This document shows, piece by piece, positions 1 through 28,056 of a stretch of DNA of 30,362 bases (positions within the stretch are counted from its first letter, which is position 1; every line of letters begins with the position of its first letter). The stretch spans positions 1 to 30,362 of IMG/VR virus record IMGVR_UViG_3300047386_000427. The stretch is one strand, 5' to 3'. Both the position numbers and the translations under genes were made by a program. The notes under the pieces are model-generated. The model did no database searches and was not told where the DNA came from. It worked only from the letters and a program-made list of their open reading frames with translations. The DNA comes from a virus.

Positions 1-424
1 TTACTTCTAAGCAATCCTTTTGGTTTCTTGGAACAAACAGGTCAGTTTTCCACCCATTAAGCTTTATATAGCGCTTAAAAAGCTTCCAGACAAGCGGAAA
101 ACGTTCGTTTGGGTTTCCTTTGCACTCCACTATGTAGCGTGGAGGTGCGGCAGGATCTACAAAATCAGGCGTGTAAGTGATGGGTAAAATCTTTTTGTGA
201 CCTCTGTCGTGTAGGTACTTTTTGGTTGGCGTTTTTTCGTAAGATGAAAAGTCTGCCTCAAAAGAGTCAATGATTGTGAACTTTGTGCCTTCGTATTCTG
301 CTGGTATTTTGTGAGCCTTAAACAACAAATACATGTGAGACTCTAGCTTTGACTGGAACTGTATGCCGTCAACAGTGGTTTTCTTGTGCCTGGTTATCTG
401 GCGCTTTTTACCATATCTCTTCAT
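1..424 (-). CDS. PD-(D/E)XK phage endonuclease (DUF1064-like), C-terminus cut by window edge
   Basis: The frame stays open to the left edge, so 141 N-terminal residues are visible. Motifs seen: VDGIQFQSKLE (residues 18-28, a conserved S-K-x-E start), TPDF with D87, and IVECKG with E100 and K102, which is the D...ExK metal site of PD-(D/E)XK nucleases. The layout matches the DUF1064 / phage Holliday-junction-resolvase-like group, which cuts branched DNA during replication or packaging; the exact substrate is inference. The ATG at 424 overlaps the upstream stop by 17 nt, indicating translational coupling; an ATG two codons earlier (430) is an alternative start. It is the last visible gene of the leftward replication operon. 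Confidence 0.7.
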   Translation of the reverse strand, partial: MKRYGKKRQITRHKKTTVDGIQFQSKLESHMYLLFKAHKIPAEYEGTKFTIIDSFEADFSSYEKTPTKKYLHDRGHKKILPITYTPDFVDPAAPPRYIVECKGNPNERFPLVWKLFKRYIKLNGWKTDLFVPRNQKDCLEV

Positions 425-3348: not shown

Positions 3349-3679
3349 TTAGATATATCTTTACATTACCCCATTTACCTCCCTTTACTTCATAGTCTAC
3401 AAGAAAGTCAATTCTTTTTGTCCAGCGTTTGTTCATTCTGTCCTCTATAGTCCAAAGCCCATCCATATCTCCTGCTCCTTCTACGTATATTGTTTTACCA
3501 AAAACAAATCCATATTCCTCTAAATCTCTAGACACAGCTACCCACCTATGATCTCCAGGACACTGAGGATTTATTTTTTTCAAAGATGCAGTTGTCAAAT
3601 AGTCTGCATTGGTTTGTTTTGGATCAGCGTGGTAAATCGTCGCTGTAACAATGATTGTGAAAAATAGTTTACCCATCAT
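3341..3679 (-). CDS. Exported 3D-domain (double-psi beta-barrel) protein, 112 aa
   Basis: An N-terminal hydrophobic stretch (MMGKLFFTIIVTATIYHA) looks like a Sec signal peptide. The rest carries the 3D-domain pattern: AVSRDLEEYGFVFGKTIYVEG, then W-T-I-E-D80-R81 and R-I-D91, the three-Asp arrangement seen in MltA/YuiC/RlpA-like folds that act on or bind peptidoglycan. In this phage it lies downstream of the primase-helicase, not the lysis genes, overlapping its stop by 4 nt. A cell-wall role during infection is inferred. Confidence 0.65.
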   Translation of the reverse strand: MMGKLFFTIIVTATIYHADPKQTNADYLTTASLKKINPQCPGDHRWVAVSRDLEEYGFVFGKTIYVEGAGDMDGLWTIEDRMNKRWTKRIDFLVDYEVKGGKWGNVKIYLIE

Positions 3680-6136: not shown

Positions 6137-6659
6137 ATTTCTCTTGTTGTGATTTTGCTCCGTTGGCAGAAGCGTGTGCAACGTCAAGCAGGTGTTGTTT
6201 TTTTCCTGAATAGATAAGGTTTGTAAAGTCCTCAAATTTTTGGACAAAGTTTACATCGTTCTCAGAGTATAATTTTTTTACTATACTTTTTTTTGAGCTG
6301 TTCAGCTGTGTGTGTATTTGAGTGTTGTAGTCAACGATTACTTTTATTTCATCGTCAAGTAAGTTAATTTTATTTCTTAAGTCAGAATCGTATTGACACC
6401 AGTCAATGATTTTGTTTACGCCATACAGTACAGTTGCATGATTGTGACCAGTTTTTCTACCCCATTTTTTTGAATAGTTACCAATCTTAGCAAGCGATAG
6501 GCTTGTGTACTTACTTGCGAAATAATGAAAGATCTTTCTTAGGTTCGTCACATCATGTTTCCTTGTGTCTCTAAATAGAAAACTTGTTGGTACTTTTTCA
6601 AAGTCAGCGATTTTGTTTGATATCACATCTAACGTGTAATAGTTTTCTTTATTCGTCAT
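6099..6659 (-). CDS. DnaA domain IV (DNA-binding) protein without AAA+ domain, 186 aa
   Basis: Residues ~30-90 match the DnaA C-terminal DNA-binding domain: DVTNLRKIFHYFASKY, then SLAKIGNYSKKWGRKTGHNHATVLYGVNKI, including the H-x-T-V signature (H74-V77) that contacts the DnaA box. No Walker motifs are present, so it cannot act as an ATPase initiator; it may mark the phage origin, recruit host DnaA or compete with it. C-terminal ~90 residues are charged helices. A strong terminator precedes it, and its end overlaps the initiator-like gene by 38 nt. Confidence 0.75.
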   Translation of the reverse strand: MTNKENYYTLDVISNKIADFEKVPTSFLFRDTRKHDVTNLRKIFHYFASKYTSLSLAKIGNYSKKWGRKTGHNHATVLYGVNKIIDWCQYDSDLRNKINLLDDEIKVIVDYNTQIHTQLNSSKKSIVKKLYSENDVNFVQKFEDFTNLIYSGKKQHLLDVAHASANGAKSQQEKYERIYKATPKNT

Positions 6660-9746: not shown

Positions 9747-9812
9747 ATTCACATATTTATTACTAATTTATTAATAATTTTGTTCATAACCAAATTTTTT
9801 TATGTTTTTTTT

Positions 9813-9862
9813 CGCGTCACATCTTGGAGCGTCGCGTCACATCTTGGAGCGTCGCGTCACAT
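9813..9862. repeat. 2.5 tandem copies of a 20-bp repeat
   Basis: Unit CGCGTCACATCTTGGAGCGT is repeated exactly at 9813-9832 and 9833-9852, with a half copy at 9853-9862. It is far richer in GC than the flanking AT-rich gap. Such arrays can be iterons or operator arrays. Confidence 0.9.
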
Positions 9863-9892
9863 GGCACAACAATGATTGTGATTTTACGTTAC

Positions 9893-10129: not shown

Positions 10130-11927
10130 TTGTTTCTAATTCTATTCCTAATTCTTCTGCTAATTCTTCTAAGCTGACGTCATTGTGTATTATGTATTGT
10201 ATTCCGTCAATTTCTTCTGTTTTACTTTCACTTTCTCCAATGACACCGTTTACTTCGCAATCTACATATTCTTTGTAGTAATACCCATCATATTCTGAGT
10301 ATGCTACGTCATCAATATGGTGTATTGCACCTGTATCACAGGCTTCAACATAATCTTCATCATCATACCATACATATTCTCCATCATATGTTATTCTAGC
10401 ATCATCATTAACTATGTTTTCTCCATATATATGACTATACACAACATCATCTTCATTATAATATTCACCATATCTATCAATGTATACGTCTTCATCGTGG
10501 CTATAATCTTCCCATTTTCCTTCAGTACTTGTCAATACATAATTACCATATTCACTGGTACTTGAATATAATGTTATTTCATCTGCATAAACATCAGACG
10601 CTTCTTGCATTGTGTCCATATATGGGTACAATTCACGACTTGTATTATTTAGTTTAATATGGAAATCAGCTTCTTGTATTGTGCTATCTGGTGCAATTAC
10701 TTTATTTGAGTTATATGTTTGTTCATATTTATACCAGTACATATTATCTTTTGCATATTGTTTTAATTTTTCTATAATTATATCATTGCCATAAATTCTA
10801 TCCATAAACATATTGTTATTACTACCATTTGCATAATCGAGTCTCCACAATATAGCTCTTCCAATTAGTTGTCTATCATTGTTTAAAGCAATAATCATTT
10901 GTACTTTTTCAGGATTTTTTGTATATATATCAAAATAATCTTGTTGACTACTACCACGCATACATGAGTTATTTAATGTACCAGTATTATCTGCATATCT
11001 ACACCCATAATACCAAAACCTAATATTCTCACCATTTACTTCTTCTATATTTATTGTTGGGTTATATATTGCTTTTAGTTTGTTGACATATTGCTCTATA
11101 AATGTATCAGTATTTATTATGCTATACCAATCAATTTTGTTTTTCATTGTTAATGCAATGAACTGTAGAATACGTCGTAACCCTTTACCATATTTTATTT
11201 CTGTTCTGTTTTTAGGTGACCAGTTTCCATTTTCACTCATATAAGTGTTTTTGTTGTTTTCTAACATTGTCATTTTACTATTTGGTTTTATAGTAAAATT
11301 TGTGTTGCCATTTGGCAGATACATGTTCACCCAATCTATTGTTTTTATAAATTCCTCACATACATTTTGAGTCATTAAGTTGAGCGCTTGATCACTTACA
11401 CCTTGATTGATCCATTTTTCATCTTTTAGTATAAGATTTTTAAGTGATGTTTGTGTTGCTTTTGAGTAGAATATTCCAGCTGCATTACTTACTATTTTTT
11501 CATATAGTGATTGTGATAACAGTCTATACTCATTACTTACTTTTGTATGTATTGTTTTAACTTTGTATTCTTCAAATATGTCGTCACGTAGATAAATATT
11601 TTTTACGTTATAACTTGAATCGTTAGCCATTTTTACATTTTTTACTTTGTATTTACCATAAAATTTTCTTACAAATTTTAATAATAATTTTTTGCGTAAA
11701 TATCTTTCAAGTTCACATAATTCTATACCATACTCATTGTATTTTTTGTTTTCAGCATCATAGTCTTGTTTTGTTCTTCTTGCACACAAAAAATAATACG
11801 CAACATTTTCTACATAGTCTTCTGTATTTTTTTGATTACAATGAAACCCAAATAGATGTGCAGAAACTATGTTTGCATCTTTAGGTGTTAGTTGCATTGA
11901 TTGTGCATGTATGTATTTAGATTCCAT
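10122..11927 (-). CDS. Large orphan phage protein with Tyr/Asp repeat tail, 601 aa
   Basis: No enzyme family recognised. Around residues 315-365 it has a conserved-looking core: NNSCMRG...P.KVQMIIALNNDRQLIGRAILWRL, a Cys-Met-Arg motif followed by a predicted beta meander. The last ~130 residues carry imperfect repeats rich in Tyr and Asp (patterns like VYIDRYGEYYNEDDVVYS, then HIYGENIVNDDA), suggesting repeated acidic beta-hairpins. I recall similar CMRG-type proteins in other large phages but cannot name a function. Overlaps the peptidase gene by 11 nt; the DNA is more AT-rich than the replication genes. Confidence 0.8.
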   Translation of the reverse strand: MESKYIHAQSMQLTPKDANIVSAHLFGFHCNQKNTEDYVENVAYYFLCARRTKQDYDAENKKYNEYGIELCELERYLRKKLLLKFVRKFYGKYKVKNVKMANDSSYNVKNIYLRDDIFEEYKVKTIHTKVSNEYRLLSQSLYEKIVSNAAGIFYSKATQTSLKNLILKDEKWINQGVSDQALNLMTQNVCEEFIKTIDWVNMYLPNGNTNFTIKPNSKMTMLENNKNTYMSENGNWSPKNRTEIKYGKGLRRILQFIALTMKNKIDWYSIINTDTFIEQYVNKLKAIYNPTINIEEVNGENIRFWYYGCRYADNTGTLNNSCMRGSSQQDYFDIYTKNPEKVQMIIALNNDRQLIGRAILWRLDYANGSNNNMFMDRIYGNDIIIEKLKQYAKDNMYWYKYEQTYNSNKVIAPDSTIQEADFHIKLNNTSRELYPYMDTMQEASDVYADEITLYSSTSEYGNYVLTSTEGKWEDYSHDEDVYIDRYGEYYNEDDVVYSHIYGENIVNDDARITYDGEYVWYDDEDYVEACDTGAIHHIDDVAYSEYDGYYYKEYVDCEVNGVIGESESKTEEIDGIQYIIHNDVSLEELAEELGIELETNE

Positions 11928-12987
11928 AGTTGTTGCTTTGTTCTACGTTATTATCATATATTTCTTCTTCAATATCATCCCATATACATGTATGATATAC
12001 TTTATGTTTTGCATTTACATAGTCATTGCAGTTATAACAGTATATATCATGACATGTTTCATCATATAATAAATGATCATGTCCGCATTCTTCACATTTG
12101 TAATCGAATATATCACCATGTATGTCTACAATTTTGTTATCTTTTTTGTAGTTTATTGGTTTTTCGTCATAGTCATACCAATCATTATATAAACTATGTG
12201 TGTTTGCATATTTTATGTGATTACCATAATTATATTTTGGTCTATCCATTTCCCATCTTTGATATGATGTAACATTTAGAATTTGCTCACACATTTCTAG
12301 GGTATCATATACATCATCTATAACAATATATTCGTTATCTGAGTGTGGATCGTAGTAACCACACGACATGTTTGCAACCATTACGTTGTTGTTTTCAGCG
12401 ATTTCACCAACATCAGTTATCCCACCATGTACAACTTTGCGAAAGTGTTTGTCAAGTATACGTTGTATAGTTTTTTGAAACTTGTTATCAAACAGTTTAG
12501 TACCAGATATATTATTGACAAAGTCATCGATACCTTTTCTGTCACATTGTAATACACATGTGCTGTTATTGAAGAAGTCGAAGTTTGCTTGACCACTTCC
12601 AATACAACCATGTTCTTCATCTTTGAAGAATACTGCTTTGAAGTTGTCAAATCTTTCTAGCAATTGTAGTGTAATGAATATACCAACTTTGTCATCACCA
12701 CCAATACCATATCTTTCCATATTGTTGGTATCAATAGCAATTAGTTTGTTTCTTACTTTGATAACTTCAACGTTCATGTTTATTTTGTGAACTGTGTCTA
12801 TGTGACATACCATTGTAGGGTATAGATCTGCTTTACCTTTTGTCACATATATGTTACCATATGAATCCGTTTCATGTTTTAGATTCATTTTTTCTAACGC
12901 TTTGAATATAAAGCGTTGCATTTTAATGTCGTTGTACGTTGTTGTTTGTACACGCATTACATTGATTAATTTTTGTAGTGTTTCCAT
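11917..12987 (-). CDS. M20/M28-like zinc metallopeptidase with C-terminal zinc ribbon, 356 aa
   Basis: Di-zinc aminopeptidase/carboxypeptidase pattern: VCHIDTVH (H62, D64), GGDDKVG (D98/D99), DEEHGCIGS (E124, E125), QCDR (D149) and DPHSDNE (H215), in the order and spacing of M20/PepT-like enzymes. The usual M20 dimerisation lid appears missing or very short. Residues 298-320 add C-x2-C...C-x2-C, a likely zinc ribbon. It would cleave small peptides or amide bonds in the host cytoplasm; the substrate is unknown. Unusual cargo for a phage early region. Terminator immediately upstream. Confidence 0.75.
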   Translation of the reverse strand: METLQKLINVMRVQTTTYNDIKMQRFIFKALEKMNLKHETDSYGNIYVTKGKADLYPTMVCHIDTVHKINMNVEVIKVRNKLIAIDTNNMERYGIGGDDKVGIFITLQLLERFDNFKAVFFKDEEHGCIGSGQANFDFFNNSTCVLQCDRKGIDDFVNNISGTKLFDNKFQKTIQRILDKHFRKVVHGGITDVGEIAENNNVMVANMSCGYYDPHSDNEYIVIDDVYDTLEMCEQILNVTSYQRWEMDRPKYNYGNHIKYANTHSLYNDWYDYDEKPINYKKDNKIVDIHGDIFDYKCEECGHDHLLYDETCHDIYCYNCNDYVNAKHKVYHTCIWDDIEEEIYDNNVEQSNNYGI

Positions 12988-13426: not shown

Positions 13427-13697
13427 ATCGAATTATTTTAATAAAATTAATAACTGCCAAAGTATATACTGTGGCTATAAACATAAAAAAGGGTGACATT
13501 AATAGCGACGATAACACATTGTTTTGTTGTATTAGGTCAACTATTAAGGTCAAAATACCTCCACCAATTAGCGCGAATAGCGCAATAAAAAATGCAGTGA
13601 GGATATTACGTTTGTGATTGTGAACAGTGATTCTGGTCACACCATTTATTTTGTGTTGTTTTACAACTACACCAGTTGATAGTGTTTTAGTTTTCAT
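13419..13697 (-). CDS. Two-pass membrane protein, 92 aa
   Basis: A basic N-terminal 30 residues (KHKINGVTRITVHNHKRN) are followed by TM1 (~32-54, glycine triplet) and TM2 (~64-87), with a short basic tail, implying both ends inside. Too far from the lysis genes to be called a holin with confidence. Lies directly downstream of tRNA-Glu in the leftward transcript. Confidence 0.65.
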   Translation of the reverse strand: MKTKTLSTGVVVKQHKINGVTRITVHNHKRNILTAFFIALFALIGGGILTLIVDLIQQNNVLSSLLMSPFFMFIATVYTLAVINFIKIIRYE

Positions 13698-14353: not shown

Positions 14354-14926
14354 TTAAGAGTGTGTTGCGTACTCAGGATTGTCCTGTTCCCACTGACTTA
14401 AGTGATCAGTGTCAAACTCTGCTTGATACATGCTGTTTCTGTCGATGTAATCGAACTTTTCCTGCTGTTGGGAGTCATATGCAGTGCGTTCAATAACTGT
14501 TTCGAAGTCATCGTCGTTGTCAAAGTTGTCAACTTCTTCTTTGATTGTGAACCGTTCTTCGAAGCTGTTGATTAACCATTTTGGTATGAAGACGATGATT
14601 CGTTCAGTTAGCTGAAGGTATTCAACCGGCTTGTTGTTTACAAGACGTGTTGTGATGTTTGAACAGTTATCTGTGAAGGCATCAACCTGCATTGATTCTG
14701 TTACACGGCTCATTGGAAACTCAACAAGTGATTGTGAATCGAAGTCCCACTCAATAGAGATGCGTTGCTTGAGAACGTTGTCGTTCCACGCAGTTGGCAT
14801 CCATTTGTCTTTGTAGATGCGTTTACCATCCAATGAAGTGACATTGGTTAGGTACATTGCCTTGCGTGATTTGCTACCGATGATTGATGCGATAACTGGT
14901 ACTGAGTTGTAACTTGAAGTTTTCAT
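14354..14926 (-). CDS. Hypothetical acidic-tailed protein, 190 aa (first leftward gene)
   Basis: Unrecognised. The N-terminal ~110 residues are beta-rich (e.g. YLTNVTSLDGKRIYKDKW) and the C-terminal third is strongly acidic (VDNFDNDDDFETVIE). As the gene next to the divergent hub it is probably among the first expressed after infection. The higher GC and codon use differ from the very AT-rich genes further along. Confidence 0.75.
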   Translation of the reverse strand: MKTSSYNSVPVIASIIGSKSRKAMYLTNVTSLDGKRIYKDKWMPTAWNDNVLKQRISIEWDFDSQSLVEFPMSRVTESMQVDAFTDNCSNITTRLVNNKPVEYLQLTERIIVFIPKWLINSFEERFTIKEEVDNFDNDDDFETVIERTAYDSQQQEKFDYIDRNSMYQAEFDTDHLSQWEQDNPEYATHS

Positions 14927-15014
14927 AATGTATTAAATTTAAATTAGATGTAATGACTATCATTACTGTATGGCGAACACACCCAATTTATTTTGGCTTA
15001 TAGCTGGGGTGTAT

Positions 15015-15044
15015 GTCTGAAAATTACGAAGTATATTTTCTGAC
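15015..15044. other. Strong imperfect hairpin
   Basis: GTC-GAAAAT-TAC pairs with GTA-ATTTTC-GAC around a GAA loop (15028-15030): 12 base pairs with one T-T mismatch and one bulge. No T-tail, so it is more likely a structural or binding element than a terminator. Confidence 0.6.
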
Positions 15045-15064
15045 CGAATGGCCTTGAGCCACGA

Positions 15065-15085
15065 GCAAGCAAGGCTTGCGAAGCC
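15065..15085. other. Two mutually exclusive hairpins
   Basis: GCAAGC-AAG-GCTTGC (15065-15079) and GGCTT-GCG-AAGCC (15073-15085) share the GCTT segment and cannot form together, an arrangement typical of RNA switches or cruciform elements. Confidence 0.5.
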
Positions 15086-15292
15086 CCTTAGCAATAATGC
15101 AAAATACAATTGGATCTTGCAAATACAGTGATGAGATATATACACACCCTGACAATACACCATACCTTAGTATATAAGACCAACAGTTGGGGTGCGTTAT
15201 GTTTGGAATGTGAGTGGGTATAGGGTTGGCTATCGAATGATTGTGAACGTGCAAGCAAGATATTTTGCAAGGGGGTACCGAGACACGGCCTA

Positions 15293-15309
15293 GGGTTGGG
15301 TGGGTGGGG
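15293..15309 (+). other. Canonical G-quadruplex motif
   Basis: GGGTTGGGTGGGTGGGG: four G-tracts with loops of 2, 1 and 1 nt, predicted to form a very stable parallel quadruplex on the + strand. GGCC at 15287-15290 and 15308-15311 bracket it and could pair. Confidence 0.85.
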
Positions 15310-15494
15310 CCCAGACGTTGGATGGTTTAAGGTGTTTGTTGGATTCGGTAGACATAGTTTGTGTGAAACGTGTGGTGCATAAAAAAAAGGTGAAAGTTTT
15401 GCAGAAAAAAAGTTGAGAATGTACCCCCGTGGGTCTACAGAAAACAGTTTGTAATAGCGTGTATATTATAATATATATAGGTTACCCAAAACCT

Positions 15495-15508
15495 CCACAC
15501 ATGCGTGG
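15495..15508. promoter_or_regulatory. 14-bp imperfect palindrome with T7 tail
   Basis: CCACACATGCGTGG is a dyad with one mismatched pair, followed by CATTTTTTT. It may be an operator upstream of the rightward promoter or a weak + strand terminator. Confidence 0.4.
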
Positions 15509-15571
15509 CATTTTTTTGTAAACCAATAAGACACTTATATAGGTCACTATCTATTTACAGGAATCCGCCAC

Positions 15572-15587
15572 ATTTTTTGTATATTTG
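15572..15587 (+). promoter_or_regulatory. Rightward promoter (T6-G + TATATTTG)
   Basis: ATTTTTTG directly precedes TATATTTG (15580-15587), a match to the Bacteroidetes -7 element; the first rightward ATG is at 15593. The same T-tract plus -7 layout occurs at 19015-19031 and 26981-26995. Confidence 0.6.
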
Positions 15588-15592
15588 TAAAT

Positions 15593-15751
15593 ATGAAAGT
15601 TAAGTATAATCAAAAGCACATTCATTGGGCTTGGATAACAAATATGAGTTATGAGCAGATTAGTGACCAAACTCTGCATGGAGATCATTCGGCTCAAAAG
15701 CCGTCCTGGATCCAAAATTCTAGTGCAGAAATTACAACAAAAACTGGATGA
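15593..15751 (+). CDS. Small protein, 52 aa, or N-terminal half of a frameshifted gene
   Basis: First ATG after the rightward promoter. The first 26 residues (MKVKYNQKHIHWAWITNMSY, then EQISDQ) look protein-like, possibly the start of an HTH. The later part is less convincing and overlaps the 49-aa ORF in the +1 frame. Either the two are separate coupled genes, or a single gene split by a +1 frameshift (natural or sequencing). Probably a regulator by position; unproven. Confidence 0.5.
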   Translation: MKVKYNQKHIHWAWITNMSYEQISDQTLHGDHSAQKPSWIQNSSAEITTKTG

Positions 15752-15800
15752 AATCGAGCGACAAGCAAGTGACAAGCAAACGACAAGCACAACAACTTGA
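15651..15800 (+). CDS. Small basic helical protein, 49 aa, overlapping the previous ORF
   Basis: ATG 15651 to TGA 15800, in the frame +1 to the 52-aa ORF. It contains a helix-like stretch KILVQKLQQKLDEIERQASD after a basic segment LKSRPGSK. The composition is more protein-like than the overlapped part of the other frame, so translation probably moves into this frame. The tail is encoded by the 11-bp repeats. Confidence 0.5.
   Translation: MSRLVTKLCMEIIRLKSRPGSKILVQKLQQKLDEIERQASDKQTTSTTT
15760..15792. repeat. Three 11-bp direct repeats (GACAAGCAA core)
   Basis: GACAAGCAAGT, GACAAGCAAAC and GACAAGCACAA follow each other exactly 11 bp apart, about one helical turn. The CAAGCAAG core recurs at 15065 and 15251 in the hub. 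Could be iterons or a regulator array. Confidence 0.75.
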
Positions 15801-15918: not shown

Positions 15919-17526
15919 ATGATTGAAAAAAGTGTGATTTTCGGCGATGATAGCCGGGAAAAACTTAAAAAAGGAATAGATGTACTAGCAGAAGCAGTTT
16001 CATCTACCCTTGGTGCTTCTGGAAGAACTGTAATCATAGAAGACCAATTTGGAACCCCCCACATTACTAAAGATGGGGTGACAGTAGCAAATAGCATTAT
16101 ACTATCAGACCCGGTTGAGAATCTTGGAGCAAGCATTCTAAAGCAGGCGTCACAAAAAACCGCCACAGAGGCTGGGGACGGAACGACGACCTCGTGTGTT
16201 TTAGCAAAGGCTATTATCGACAACTGTTTTATGAATATAGACAAGATCGATAATGTAACTCAAGCAAAGGAAGGGATAGAAGCAGCAGCAAAAAAGCTTG
16301 TAAGTATTCTGGAGAAAATGAAAAAGGAAGTTACACCTGACACACTTGAGCAGGTGGCAACCATTTCAGCAAACGGTGACAACTACATTGGTAAAATGAT
16401 TTCAGATGCCTATAACAAGGTTGGAGTGGATGGCGTTGTAACAATGGACGAGTCCCCCACAGGCGAAGACTATACTGAAATTACCAACGGAACCAAAATT
16501 AAAAGAGGGTACGGAACTCCTTTTAGTGTAAATAATTTAAGGTCAAAGTCCGTTGAGTATCAAAATCCACTAATTGTGATAAGCGACACAAAGATAGATA
16601 TGCACGAGAGGCTTCACTTTGCCTTTGAGCAGTCAATCAAACAAAAACGACCGCTTTTGATCATTTCTGATTTAGATGACAGGGTAAAGCTATTCATTGC
16701 ACAGAATATAAATAAAAAGAATCTGACAGCAAACTTTATTCTTCCAGAAGGTATAGGGATTAAAAAGTTCGAACTATTGGAAGATTTGTGCGTTATGACA
16801 GGAGCAAAGATGATATCAGAGATGTCAGGAGATGCAAAAGAAAATATCGATGTGTCTTACCTTGGCACTTGTAGACAAATGATATCAAACTCTTCTGAAA
16901 CCGTGCTTGTCTTTGATGATGAGCCAAACCAAAAGAAACAAGAGATCATTGAGTGGGTTAGCAATGAGATTAAACTTGAAAAGAACAAGACTGAGAAGTG
17001 GCACCTGCAGGATAGACTGTCTAAGTTAGCGGGTGGGGTGGCCACTATAAAGCTTGCTGGTAACTCAGAAGTCGAACTCAAAGAGAAAAAAGATCGTGTA
17101 GATGACTCCATCCACGCAACTAAAGCTGCCCTTGAAGAAGGGATTGTTGCTGGTGGAGGTATTGCTCTACTAGATGCTTTCCAAAAAATCGGCGGAAACG
17201 CGCCTCGAGGCTGCTCCCCTTCTTTTGCGTTAGGCTATAAAATGATGCTCTGGTCTATACCAACAGTATGGGATAGAATCATCTCTAACTCTGGGCAGGA
17301 AATTGACCCACATAGCGAAAAGAAAATGGAGAAAAGACGTAAAGGCTATGGTATTGATGTCAAAACCAAAAAATTCGGAAACATGTTTACTATGGGTATT
17401 GTAGATCCATTCAAGGTCACAAAGAACGCAATACTTAATTCAGCATCTGTGGCCTCCACGATTCTGACAACATCATGTGTAATTTCTAATAAAAGAGTAA
17501 AAAAGACAGATGAAAGCAGTGGGTAA
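15919..17526 (+). CDS. groEL: Phage chaperonin GroEL (Hsp60), 535 aa
   Basis: Near full-length group I chaperonin. ATP-site residues are kept: LGASGRTVII, TKDGVTVA (D52), AGDGTTTS (D87-T91), and VDDSIHATKAALEEGIVAGGG with D396 equivalent to the catalytic D398 of E. coli. The C-terminal part GNMFTMGIVDPFKVTKNA is also conserved. The Gly-Gly-Met tail of bacterial GroEL is replaced by a charged end (KKTDESSG), as usual in phage versions. It would fold phage proteins, perhaps capsid or the long fibres. groES overlaps by 17 nt. No Shine-Dalgarno; the leader is A/T-rich. Confidence 0.95.
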   Translation: MIEKSVIFGDDSREKLKKGIDVLAEAVSSTLGASGRTVIIEDQFGTPHITKDGVTVANSIILSDPVENLGASILKQASQKTATEAGDGTTTSCVLAKAIIDNCFMNIDKIDNVTQAKEGIEAAAKKLVSILEKMKKEVTPDTLEQVATISANGDNYIGKMISDAYNKVGVDGVVTMDESPTGEDYTEITNGTKIKRGYGTPFSVNNLRSKSVEYQNPLIVISDTKIDMHERLHFAFEQSIKQKRPLLIISDLDDRVKLFIAQNINKKNLTANFILPEGIGIKKFELLEDLCVMTGAKMISEMSGDAKENIDVSYLGTCRQMISNSSETVLVFDDEPNQKKQEIIEWVSNEIKLEKNKTEKWHLQDRLSKLAGGVATIKLAGNSEVELKEKKDRVDDSIHATKAALEEGIVAGGGIALLDAFQKIGGNAPRGCSPSFALGYKMMLWSIPTVWDRIISNSGQEIDPHSEKKMEKRRKGYGIDVKTKKFGNMFTMGIVDPFKVTKNAILNSASVASTILTTSCVISNKRVKKTDESSG

Positions 17527-17788
17527 GTTTGTAATCGTCCGAGATGAGGAGGTTATACAGAAAAATGATTTAGGATTAATTATCACAGAAGAATCAGATC
17601 TGAACATTAGGTATACAATCGGTGAGGTTGTAAGCTGTGGTGATGATGTAAAAGAGGTAAAACCAGGTCAATACGTTTACTTTGATAAAGTGTCAGGCTC
17701 TGAGCTGCGCGTGAAAGGTAGTAAATACAAAGCCATCAGAGAGCAAGACGTGGTTGTAACTATGGATAATGTTGATTCCGTTATTTGA
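17510..17788 (+). CDS. groES: Phage co-chaperonin GroES, 92 aa
   Basis: GroES-like beta barrel: KFVIVRDEEV start, a mobile loop around residues 15-33 containing the hydrophobic LGLII contact (21-25), then IGEVVSCGDDVKEVKPGQYVYFD. The segment corresponding to the GroES roof hairpin is short, as in phage co-chaperonins. It lies directly after and overlaps groEL, so the phage carries its own complete chamber and lid. Confidence 0.88.
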   Translation: MKAVGKFVIVRDEEVIQKNDLGLIITEESDLNIRYTIGEVVSCGDDVKEVKPGQYVYFDKVSGSELRVKGSKYKAIREQDVVVTMDNVDSVI

Positions 17789-17810
17789 TTACGATAAACA
17801 TCGTATCATA

Positions 17811-18515
17811 ATGGAAACCTCATTTCGTTTTGAAGGTGAAAAATATATTTACTTTCCAGACGGAGTTAAGTTTTACTCTCTTTACCGGACAAAACGCAAG
17901 ATAAATTCTTTCTCAGAGCTAGAATATATAGCAGAAAAGTTTAACCACCTAAATCCAGAGTTCGATCCAGATTTAACTAAACGCCTGTTTTGTGAACTTG
18001 CAGACAGAGGATCTGGACACATCATAAGAACGTATGGAGAAGGCAGGGTCGAAGCTATGGTTGATAGGGTTATGGCCAAAAACAAAGAGCCATACTGCCC
18101 TAGACTGCGAAAAATCTTATTCAATCCAAACAAAATGCTATCTAGAACCCAGAAGATGCAAATAGTGGGATCGCTAATAAGTGCAAAAGAAAGGCCACCA
18201 GAAGAAGATATAGCAGCAGTAATTGAAGATCTATGGATTGGGCTTGAGAAAATAACCATTACAAGGGTCGCACAAGAGCTTAACACCACAAGACACCTTG
18301 TCAGGTGGTATTTTACAGACGAGATAATGATCTCAGTTAGAAGTGCAAATCAGGAAATCAGGCAAAAAAACATCATTGCTAAATGTATAGAGGCGATTGA
18401 TATTTTAACTGAAGGGGGTAACAGGCTGAAAATGAGGGAGTTAAAGAAATTAACATCAGTTAGAGATTATTTCTTGCTAAAAAAATCTATAGTTTACTAC
18501 CAGGATCGGATTTAG
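17811..18515 (+). CDS. HTH protein of unknown role, 234 aa
   Basis: I start at ATG 17811 (METSFRFEGEKYIYF); the frame is open 14 codons further but that part overlaps groES. A helix-turn-helix is visible at ~148-170 (ITRVAQELNTTRHLVRWYF). Otherwise basic and helical with no catalytic motif. It follows the chaperonins and meets the facing gene tail to tail with a 29-nt overlap. It could be a transcription regulator or a packaging/DNA-binding protein; a small-terminase role cannot be excluded. Confidence 0.65.
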   Translation: METSFRFEGEKYIYFPDGVKFYSLYRTKRKINSFSELEYIAEKFNHLNPEFDPDLTKRLFCELADRGSGHIIRTYGEGRVEAMVDRVMAKNKEPYCPRLRKILFNPNKMLSRTQKMQIVGSLISAKERPPEEDIAAVIEDLWIGLEKITITRVAQELNTTRHLVRWYFTDEIMISVRSANQEIRQKNIIAKCIEAIDILTEGGNRLKMRELKKLTSVRDYFLLKKSIVYYQDRI

Positions 18516-27715: not shown

Positions 27716-28056
27716 AAACTTATTTATTTACTGGAATATTAGCAATGCTTTCTTTTGCGTTGCAAGCACAGGATTACAAAAACAACATATCAGTAGTACA
27801 ATTTAGCGCTTCATTTGTAGAAGAAAACGAAATATCTCTCAAAAAGTTTAGGGAGTACAATACATATACTTTTCGAATAGAAAACGACACAGACAAGTTT
27901 GTCAAAGAAGCTATTGAGTTTATACCAACACTTGTGTTGTATAATAACGGAAAAGAGATTGCTAGAATAGAAAGCGGCATTTCTTTGAAGTTGCCAGATG
28001 ATTGTGAACAGATCGTCATGGAAAAAATTGAGGAAATCATAGAAAGCAAATTTTAG
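27712..28056 (+). CDS. Exported thioredoxin-fold protein lacking CxxC, 114 aa
   Basis: Signal peptide MKTYLFTGILAMLSFALQAQ ends QAQ-D, typical of Bacteroidota. The mature part follows a thioredoxin fold: VVQF strand, helix, RIEND, then FIPTLVLYNNGKEIARIESG with cis-Pro P72. At the usual WCxxC site it has F35-V-E-E-N39, so it cannot do disulfide exchange. Likely a periplasmic binding or assembly partner; paired with the OM-type gene 2 nt downstream. Confidence 0.65.
   Translation: MKTYLFTGILAMLSFALQAQDYKNNISVVQFSASFVEENEISLKKFREYNTYTFRIENDTDKFVKEAIEFIPTLVLYNNGKEIARIESGISLKLPDDCEQIVMEKIEEIIESKF

Follow-up and report, generated by a model that had tools for sequence, protein, structure and literature searches.

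A conserved non-coding region between divergent gene arms of uncultured phages anchors a one-strand, graded array of a nine-base word

The window analysed here is a stretch of 30,362 nucleotides, positions 1 to 30,362 of the IMG/VR virus record IMGVR_UViG_3300047386_000427, in which two gene arms diverge from a non-coding hub. On the left, the 190-aa gene p190 starts at 14926 and opens a leftward cluster of p190, tRNA-Glu and replication genes. On the right, the first rightward ATG is at 15593 and the rightward cluster consists of a 49-aa ORF, groEL (at 15919), groES, p248 and structural genes. The original prediction placed about 660 bp without genes at the point where the arms diverge, and this holds: the boundaries at 14926 and 15593 are exact, and the ORFs within are not conserved, their frames being broken by many indels in the aligned relatives. 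Across a group of uncultured phages, which probably infect Bacteroidota, the stretch is kept as a non-coding control region. The sequence to its right is not gene-free, as it carries the 49-aa ORF, which escaped the ORF listing with its cut-off of 50 aa.

14927..15592, no strand assigned: non-coding hub between the divergent arms; its homologue in relatives is the interval that separates groEL from p190 or from the gene replacing p190
15651..15800, plus strand: conserved 49-aa ORF (MSRLVTKLCMEIIRLKSRPG...), which the relatives examined also have ahead of groEL

The predicted G-quadruplex is a single motif (15293-15309), the sole one in the 30 kb window, and the predicted repeated motif, GCAAGCAAG, has just two copies in the window, at 15065 and 15251. 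The plus strand had been described as unusually G/T-rich, which is true of 15180-15480 (98th percentile of the window, with GC skew at the 99.9th percentile) and not of the full 666 bp (66th percentile).

Relatives were recovered from IMG/VR through p190, groEL and a conserved element of the hub, element A (given as GGGATAGGGTTGGCTATCGAATGATTGTGAAC), the core of which is the 9-mer TGATTGTGA. The two-arm plan is common to the long records G005 (60.9 kb, with a 123-bp end overlap), G010, G012 and G003. A DNA search found no isolate phage that shares the hub DNA. By protein the nearest isolates are Elemovirus (GroEL 40%) and the Cellulophaga phage phi10:1 (primase-helicase 44%). The Elemovirus phages, which infect Flavobacterium, have the same two-arm layout as the window, but neither they nor phi10:1 have a match to element A or the TGATTGTGA array of the window clade. 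Environmental genomes that carry GroEL and are attributed to putative Flavobacteriaceae phages are described in the literature (PMC5332604), and together with the nearest isolates by protein they suggest that a Bacteroidota host is likely. The primases of the clade differ by up to about 30%, and TGATTGTGA is kept throughout. One phage contig of the clade, L053 (NZMJ01000013.1, 64.6 kb), which came out of a genome-collection scan with GroEL, was binned in a MAG of Maricaulis (Alphaproteobacteria), probably in error; in the other contigs of this MAG TGATTGTGA is not polar.

The left half of the hub contains the following features.

14950..15149, no strand assigned: the only significantly structured part, multi-branched and closed by a long-range stem (z -6.1 on the plus strand, -3.6 on the minus strand)
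14950..14966, minus strand: covarying palindrome GTAATGA-TAG-TCATTAC, about 23 nt upstream of the p190 ATG
14960..14971, plus strand: arm b of the long-range stem (TCATTACTGTAT), pairing with 15123-15134
15123..15134, plus strand: arm a of the long-range stem (ATACAGTGATGA), a rival of the palindrome for arm b

The strong structure first described for the region is confined to 14950-15149, as the fold of the whole 666 bp is not unusual against dinucleotide shuffles (z -0.72 on the plus strand and -0.89 on the minus strand). The structured segment and the minus-strand leader of p190 overlap, and structured domains are found at the same place in L022, L023, L031 and L032. Across five lineages, 95% of the cells of the palindrome are paired and both sides have changed in five of eight pairs, a covariation score that was reached by none of 500 shuffles. 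An equivalent long-range stem of other sequence is formed in L021, L022, L023 and L031. The strand signal is mixed, with wobble pairs favouring the plus strand for the long stem and the minus strand for the palindrome. The p190 leader may be switch-like, and the palindrome may also be a palindromic operator. A hairpin-rich block around CGAGACGAGCAGAGGTTCCCTCGCAGAAATGAACGAAGTGAA, possibly a mobile structured element, lies between p190 and element A in L021, L030, L031 and L032 and is missing from the window.

Could the hub encode a large structured non-coding RNA? The significant fold, the long-range stem that four relatives build from different sequence and the covarying palindrome beside the p190 start speak in favour, but we regard this as quite improbable: the interior of the left structure varies between lineages, the global fold is not significant, and there was no Rfam match at the gathering threshold (one chance hit only). 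In addition, RNAalifold on the right half (12 sequences, both strands) gave five invariant pairs and no covariation, which shows conservation of the right half at the DNA level. The structured RNA of the original prediction is therefore upheld for the left approximately 200 nt and not for the right half, and the hub behaves as DNA rather than as a structured RNA.

The right half (15198-15590) is spanned by 12 sequences, the window among them. Their motifs are kept in order, namely element A, G-runs, the A-tract box AAAAAGSTAAAAA, GTTACCYAAAACC, GTGGC and TTTACA-N-GCGCCACAT, mostly followed by TATATTTG.

15198..15205, plus strand: TATGTTTG, a low-confidence candidate for a Bacteroidota -7 element, immediately ahead of element A; the GTTT columns are conserved
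15216..15249, plus strand: element A, GGGTATAGGGTTGGCTATCGAATGATTGTGAACG, proposed to mark the DNA end or packaging start; core TATCNNATGATTGTGAA in 12 of 12 aligned sequences, two of the contigs being cut just before or inside the element
15268..15278, plus strand: CAAGGGGGTAC, complementary to 15421-15431
15293..15309, plus strand: G-quadruplex motif GGGTTGGGTGGGTGGGG, identical in L027 and L029
15381..15396, plus strand: A-tract box C (AAAAAGSTAAAAA in relatives), from the alignment of relatives
15480..15494, minus strand: element E (AGGTTTTGGGTAACC on this strand), possibly the -7 element or start of a leftward promoter
15503..15522, minus strand: inverted TTTACA-N-GCCAC copy, the upstream part of the proposed leftward promoter, seen in relatives
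15554..15573, plus strand: TTTACAGGAATCCGCCACAT (consensus TTTACAnnnnTGCGCCACAT), which forms the upstream portion of the rightward promoter and recurs ahead of inserted genes in L021, L022, L024 and L025
15580..15587, plus strand: TATATTTG, -7 element of the rightward promoter, conserved in relatives

Most relatives have other G-runs on the same strand, and L028 has C-runs. Eight of the 12 sequences have about 335 bp between element A and the last GCCAC; this spacing is shorter in L030-L032 (282-285 bp) and longer in L028 (427 bp).

The original prediction of a promoter hub is borne out by the Bacteroidota-type -7 element TATATTTG (at 15580) and by the motif upstream of it, both of which are kept in relatives. 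The promoter consensus of the Bacteroidota sigma factor is TTTG at -33 and TAnnTTTG at -7. Gene cassettes upstream of groEL in L021, L022, L024 and L025 bring their own module of TTTACA-GCGCCACAT and TATATTTG. The recurrence of TTTACA-N-GCGCCACAT with a TATATTTG-type element before these inserted genes indicates that the two form a promoter module, and the facing inverted copy of the motif suggests a leftward promoter. Sigma-70 promoters were rejected, as matches were fewer than in shuffles.

A search for copies of the element A core gave an unexpected array of TGATTGTGA, which makes the hub special at the DNA level for a reason that the original prediction had missed. The copies in the window are as follows.

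271..279, plus strand: TGATTGTGA copy
3652..3660, plus strand: TGATTGTGA copy
6439..6447, plus strand: TGATTGTGA copy
9873..9881, plus strand: TGATTGTGA copy at the right edge of a GTCGC array, with the same placement in 5 of 5 genomes examined
11508..11516, plus strand: TGATTGTGA copy
13615..13623, plus strand: TGATTGTGA copy
14542..14550, plus strand: TGATTGTGA copy
14729..14737, plus strand: TGATTGTGA copy
15238..15246, plus strand: TGATTGTGA in element A, the anchor of the polar array
27999..28007, plus strand: TGATTGTGA copy, the only one to the right of element A in the window

The long genomes carry 8-19 copies each. There are 10 in the window, 16 in G003, 14 in G005, 19 in G010 and 11 in G012, all on the strand that reads towards groEL. 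For these five genomes this amounts to 70 copies on one strand (1.7 expected) and 0 on the other (1.1 expected), with expectations of about 0.3-0.4 per genome taken from a third-order Markov model. Twelve further records gave a strand ratio of 64:0, while the reversed word, used as a control, had 0-1 matches in each apart from the MAG chromosome. A further 76 left-arm contigs, which were found by primase and had not been counted before, gave 261:0. Some copies occupy homologous places in related genomes, so that the counts are not all independent events. In eight of eight clade genomes tested TGATTGTGA was the most strand-biased 9-mer. The core is exact, one-mismatch variants having no comparable strand bias, and the preceding base is A or G in 88% of contexts. 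Only sporadic copies and no array were found in 18 records with a related TerL and in nine Bacteroidota isolate phages, from which it follows that the array is not a signal shared by Bacteroidota phages at large.

The copies lie in all three frames of the leftward genes, which points to selection at the DNA level, and they also occur in the right arm on the same DNA strand, so that the word reads as sense in right-arm genes and as antisense in left-arm genes. A motif acting at the mRNA level was rejected on the latter ground. A KOPS-like (FtsK-orienting) motif was also rejected, since the orientation does not reverse at element A and a single strand is used on both sides. These data bear on the possibility that the hub does no more than provide divergent promoters and a leader, and that the TGATTGTGA copies bind a regulator of transcription or translation of the leftward mRNAs. 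The copies do reach their highest density close to where the leftward transcript is proposed to begin, and the promoter motifs are conserved, but given the strand of the right-arm copies and the use of all three frames within coding sequence we consider this highly improbable.

The density of TGATTGTGA falls leftwards from element A, from 1.43 per kb (0-2 kb) through 0.76, 0.51, 0.31 and 0.12 to 0.08 per kb (40-58 kb). The gaps between copies widen with distance in seven of seven genomes (Spearman 0.59-0.95), and within 10 kb of element A there are 49 copies to the left and 1 to the right (binomial p 9e-14). This analysis assumes that G010, G012 and the MAG contig are circular; the part of the gradient near element A is independent of this. 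The same polarity and gradient were seen in the 64.6 kb MAG contig (G016:C66), which was found after the idea had been formed. In our view the polarity and the gradient are beyond doubt. A word in one orientation that is densest at a single point, thins out from there and is independent of transcription on both arms fits selection by a helicase-nuclease that enters at a DNA end and responds to a Chi sequence. In its polarity TGATTGTGA corresponds to the Chi of E. coli for an enzyme that moves left.

The hub had also been put forward as the leading candidate for the replication origin, and this rank was not supported. The minimum of the cumulative GC skew is at 12,718 in the window rather than in the hub, and lies 0.7-5 kb from element A in G003, G010 and G012; GC skew follows gene orientation. 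A search of the hub for direct repeats of the iteron type found no array. A better candidate for an iteron-type origin lies to the left:

9812..9862, plus strand: iteron-like repeat array with a 20-bp unit (TCGCGTCACATCTTGGAGCG) in 2.5 copies, the rival origin candidate

Each of the five long genomes (the window, G003, G005, G010 and G012) has one such GTCGC-rich tandem array, 4.2-6.3 kb to the left of element A and ending in TGATTGTGA.

The same observations have to be weighed for the main rival to a packaging cut, in which element A would be the start of leftward recombination-dependent or rolling-circle replication, and so an origin in a broad sense, and TGATTGTGA would protect the free tail that leads from it. 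Such a start also predicts a leftward-facing double-strand end with the same polarity and gradient, and it would suit the G-rich, strongly GC-skewed plus strand, the divergent promoters and the AT-skew minimum at 15,018. The position of the GC-skew minimum, the dependence of skew on gene orientation and the more classical origin candidate in the GTCGC array count against it, and we think it rather unlikely.

Contig ends provide a second line of evidence on element A. Among 12 IMG/VR contigs with a genuine element A, four end no more than 40 bp from it: L027 (+2), L029 (-3) and L028 (-35) start at the element and run right, and L196 arrives from the left and stops 26 nt past it. The pattern was spotted after the fact, and assembly difficulty is an alternative cause. 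In a wider scan for element A, two of the newly named loci belong to the clade (L264 and L278), and both duplicate contigs that had been recovered before, L029 and L196.

The right arm of G005 encodes TerL (phrog_6681), a portal and a virion structural protein; an earlier search for TerL with phrog_2 had given no match. p248 (17769-18515), which directly follows groES and is conserved in 14 relatives (57-92% identity), is a candidate small terminase or regulator with an HTH-like C-terminal helical domain. It had no match in a family search, and its folded model (pTM 0.45) had no structure match at E<0.001. Among the phage proteins are one of the exonuclease VIII type, encoded in the window and compatible with recombination-dependent growth, and a 'DNA repair exonuclease' (phrog_704).

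We therefore propose a reading which, in our judgement, has about an even chance of being correct: the hub would be a control region with divergent promoters, element A a programmed double-strand end, most likely a terminase cut, and TGATTGTGA a Chi-like signal. In its first role the hub would drive both arms from divergent promoters, the replication genes leftwards and groEL with the structural genes rightwards, and would supply a structured leader for the first leftward gene. In its second, element A would mark the double-strand end, most likely where terminase cuts to begin rightward packaging. With packaging rightwards from element A, the exposed arm lies to its left. A host helicase-nuclease of the AddAB or RecBCD type would enter this free end and travel left, meeting TGATTGTGA in one orientation, first within element A and then at growing intervals. 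Each encounter could switch the enzyme from degradation to recombination, which would protect the unpackaged concatemer and feed recombination-dependent replication. The nuclease, the switch, the cut and the cutting enzyme are what we infer here. Element A extends well past the 9-mer, and this extension is left unexplained by Chi alone.

A more specific form of this proposal, in which TGATTGTGA is the Chi of the AddAB- or RecBCD-type enzyme of Bacteroidota hosts and is laid out as a one-sided graded array starting exactly at the packaging cut (element A), is tentative, and we would sooner expect it to need revision than to hold in full. Our literature search found no Chi described for Bacteroidota, and for Bacteroides fragilis it was given as unknown in 2014 (PMC4027173). 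A search for the TGATTGTGA string returned only unrelated papers among the matches listed. Instead of a host Chi enzyme, TGATTGTGA might be read by a protein of the phage itself, such as a nuclease, a recombinase or a DNA-organising or packaging protein. One motif is shared across a clade with such divergent primases and is missing as an array from relatives with a similar TerL and from other Bacteroidota phages, and the two phage exonucleases are at hand. On the other hand, polarity and a density graded from a single point are typical of end-entering nucleases with Chi, and no phage protein of such specificity was identified; we judge this reading unlikely.

An array strictly on one strand, graded and anchored on a single conserved element, points very strongly, as a sequence signature, to a machine that processes DNA in one direction. 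If TGATTGTGA is Chi-like, it would be a candidate Chi for Bacteroidota and would show how uncultured phages probably survive host helicase-nucleases, and packaging ends or phage DNA ends could be located from sequence alone.

The hub and its array can be set beside known systems. As in Bacteroidota promoters, TATATTTG stands beside the start of the rightward arm, with TTTG at N20 in some relatives, but the hub adds a conserved TTTACA-GCGCCAC block and a facing inverted copy. Like the Chi sites of RecBCD and AddAB, which form arrays in lambdoid, P1-like and T5-like phages, TGATTGTGA is short, exact, over-represented and strand-polar. It differs from the known arrays in being a different 9-mer, in keeping to one strand around the whole genome, in its probable Bacteroidota host and in a density that declines smoothly to one side of a single conserved element. 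The Chi sites of lambdoid phages are most frequent between the origin and the packaging site, and protection of free ends near the packaging site was suggested by the authors (PMC3784561). In the window clade the gradient rises towards element A and takes in the interval between the GTCGC array, a candidate origin, and the element, a candidate DNA end. In lambda, cutting at cos leaves only the right end open to RecBCD, as terminase covers the left end (PMC2082072). Unlike cos and pac regions, the hub comes with no identified small terminase and lies about 19 kb (from element A) from TerL, and a cut within it is a proposal from sequence. Like lambda cos and P1 pac, it is a non-coding block of several elements and conserved length between replication and structural arms, some of its contigs end at one element, and the proposed exposed end and the polarity of the motif would be as at lambda cos (PMC2082072).
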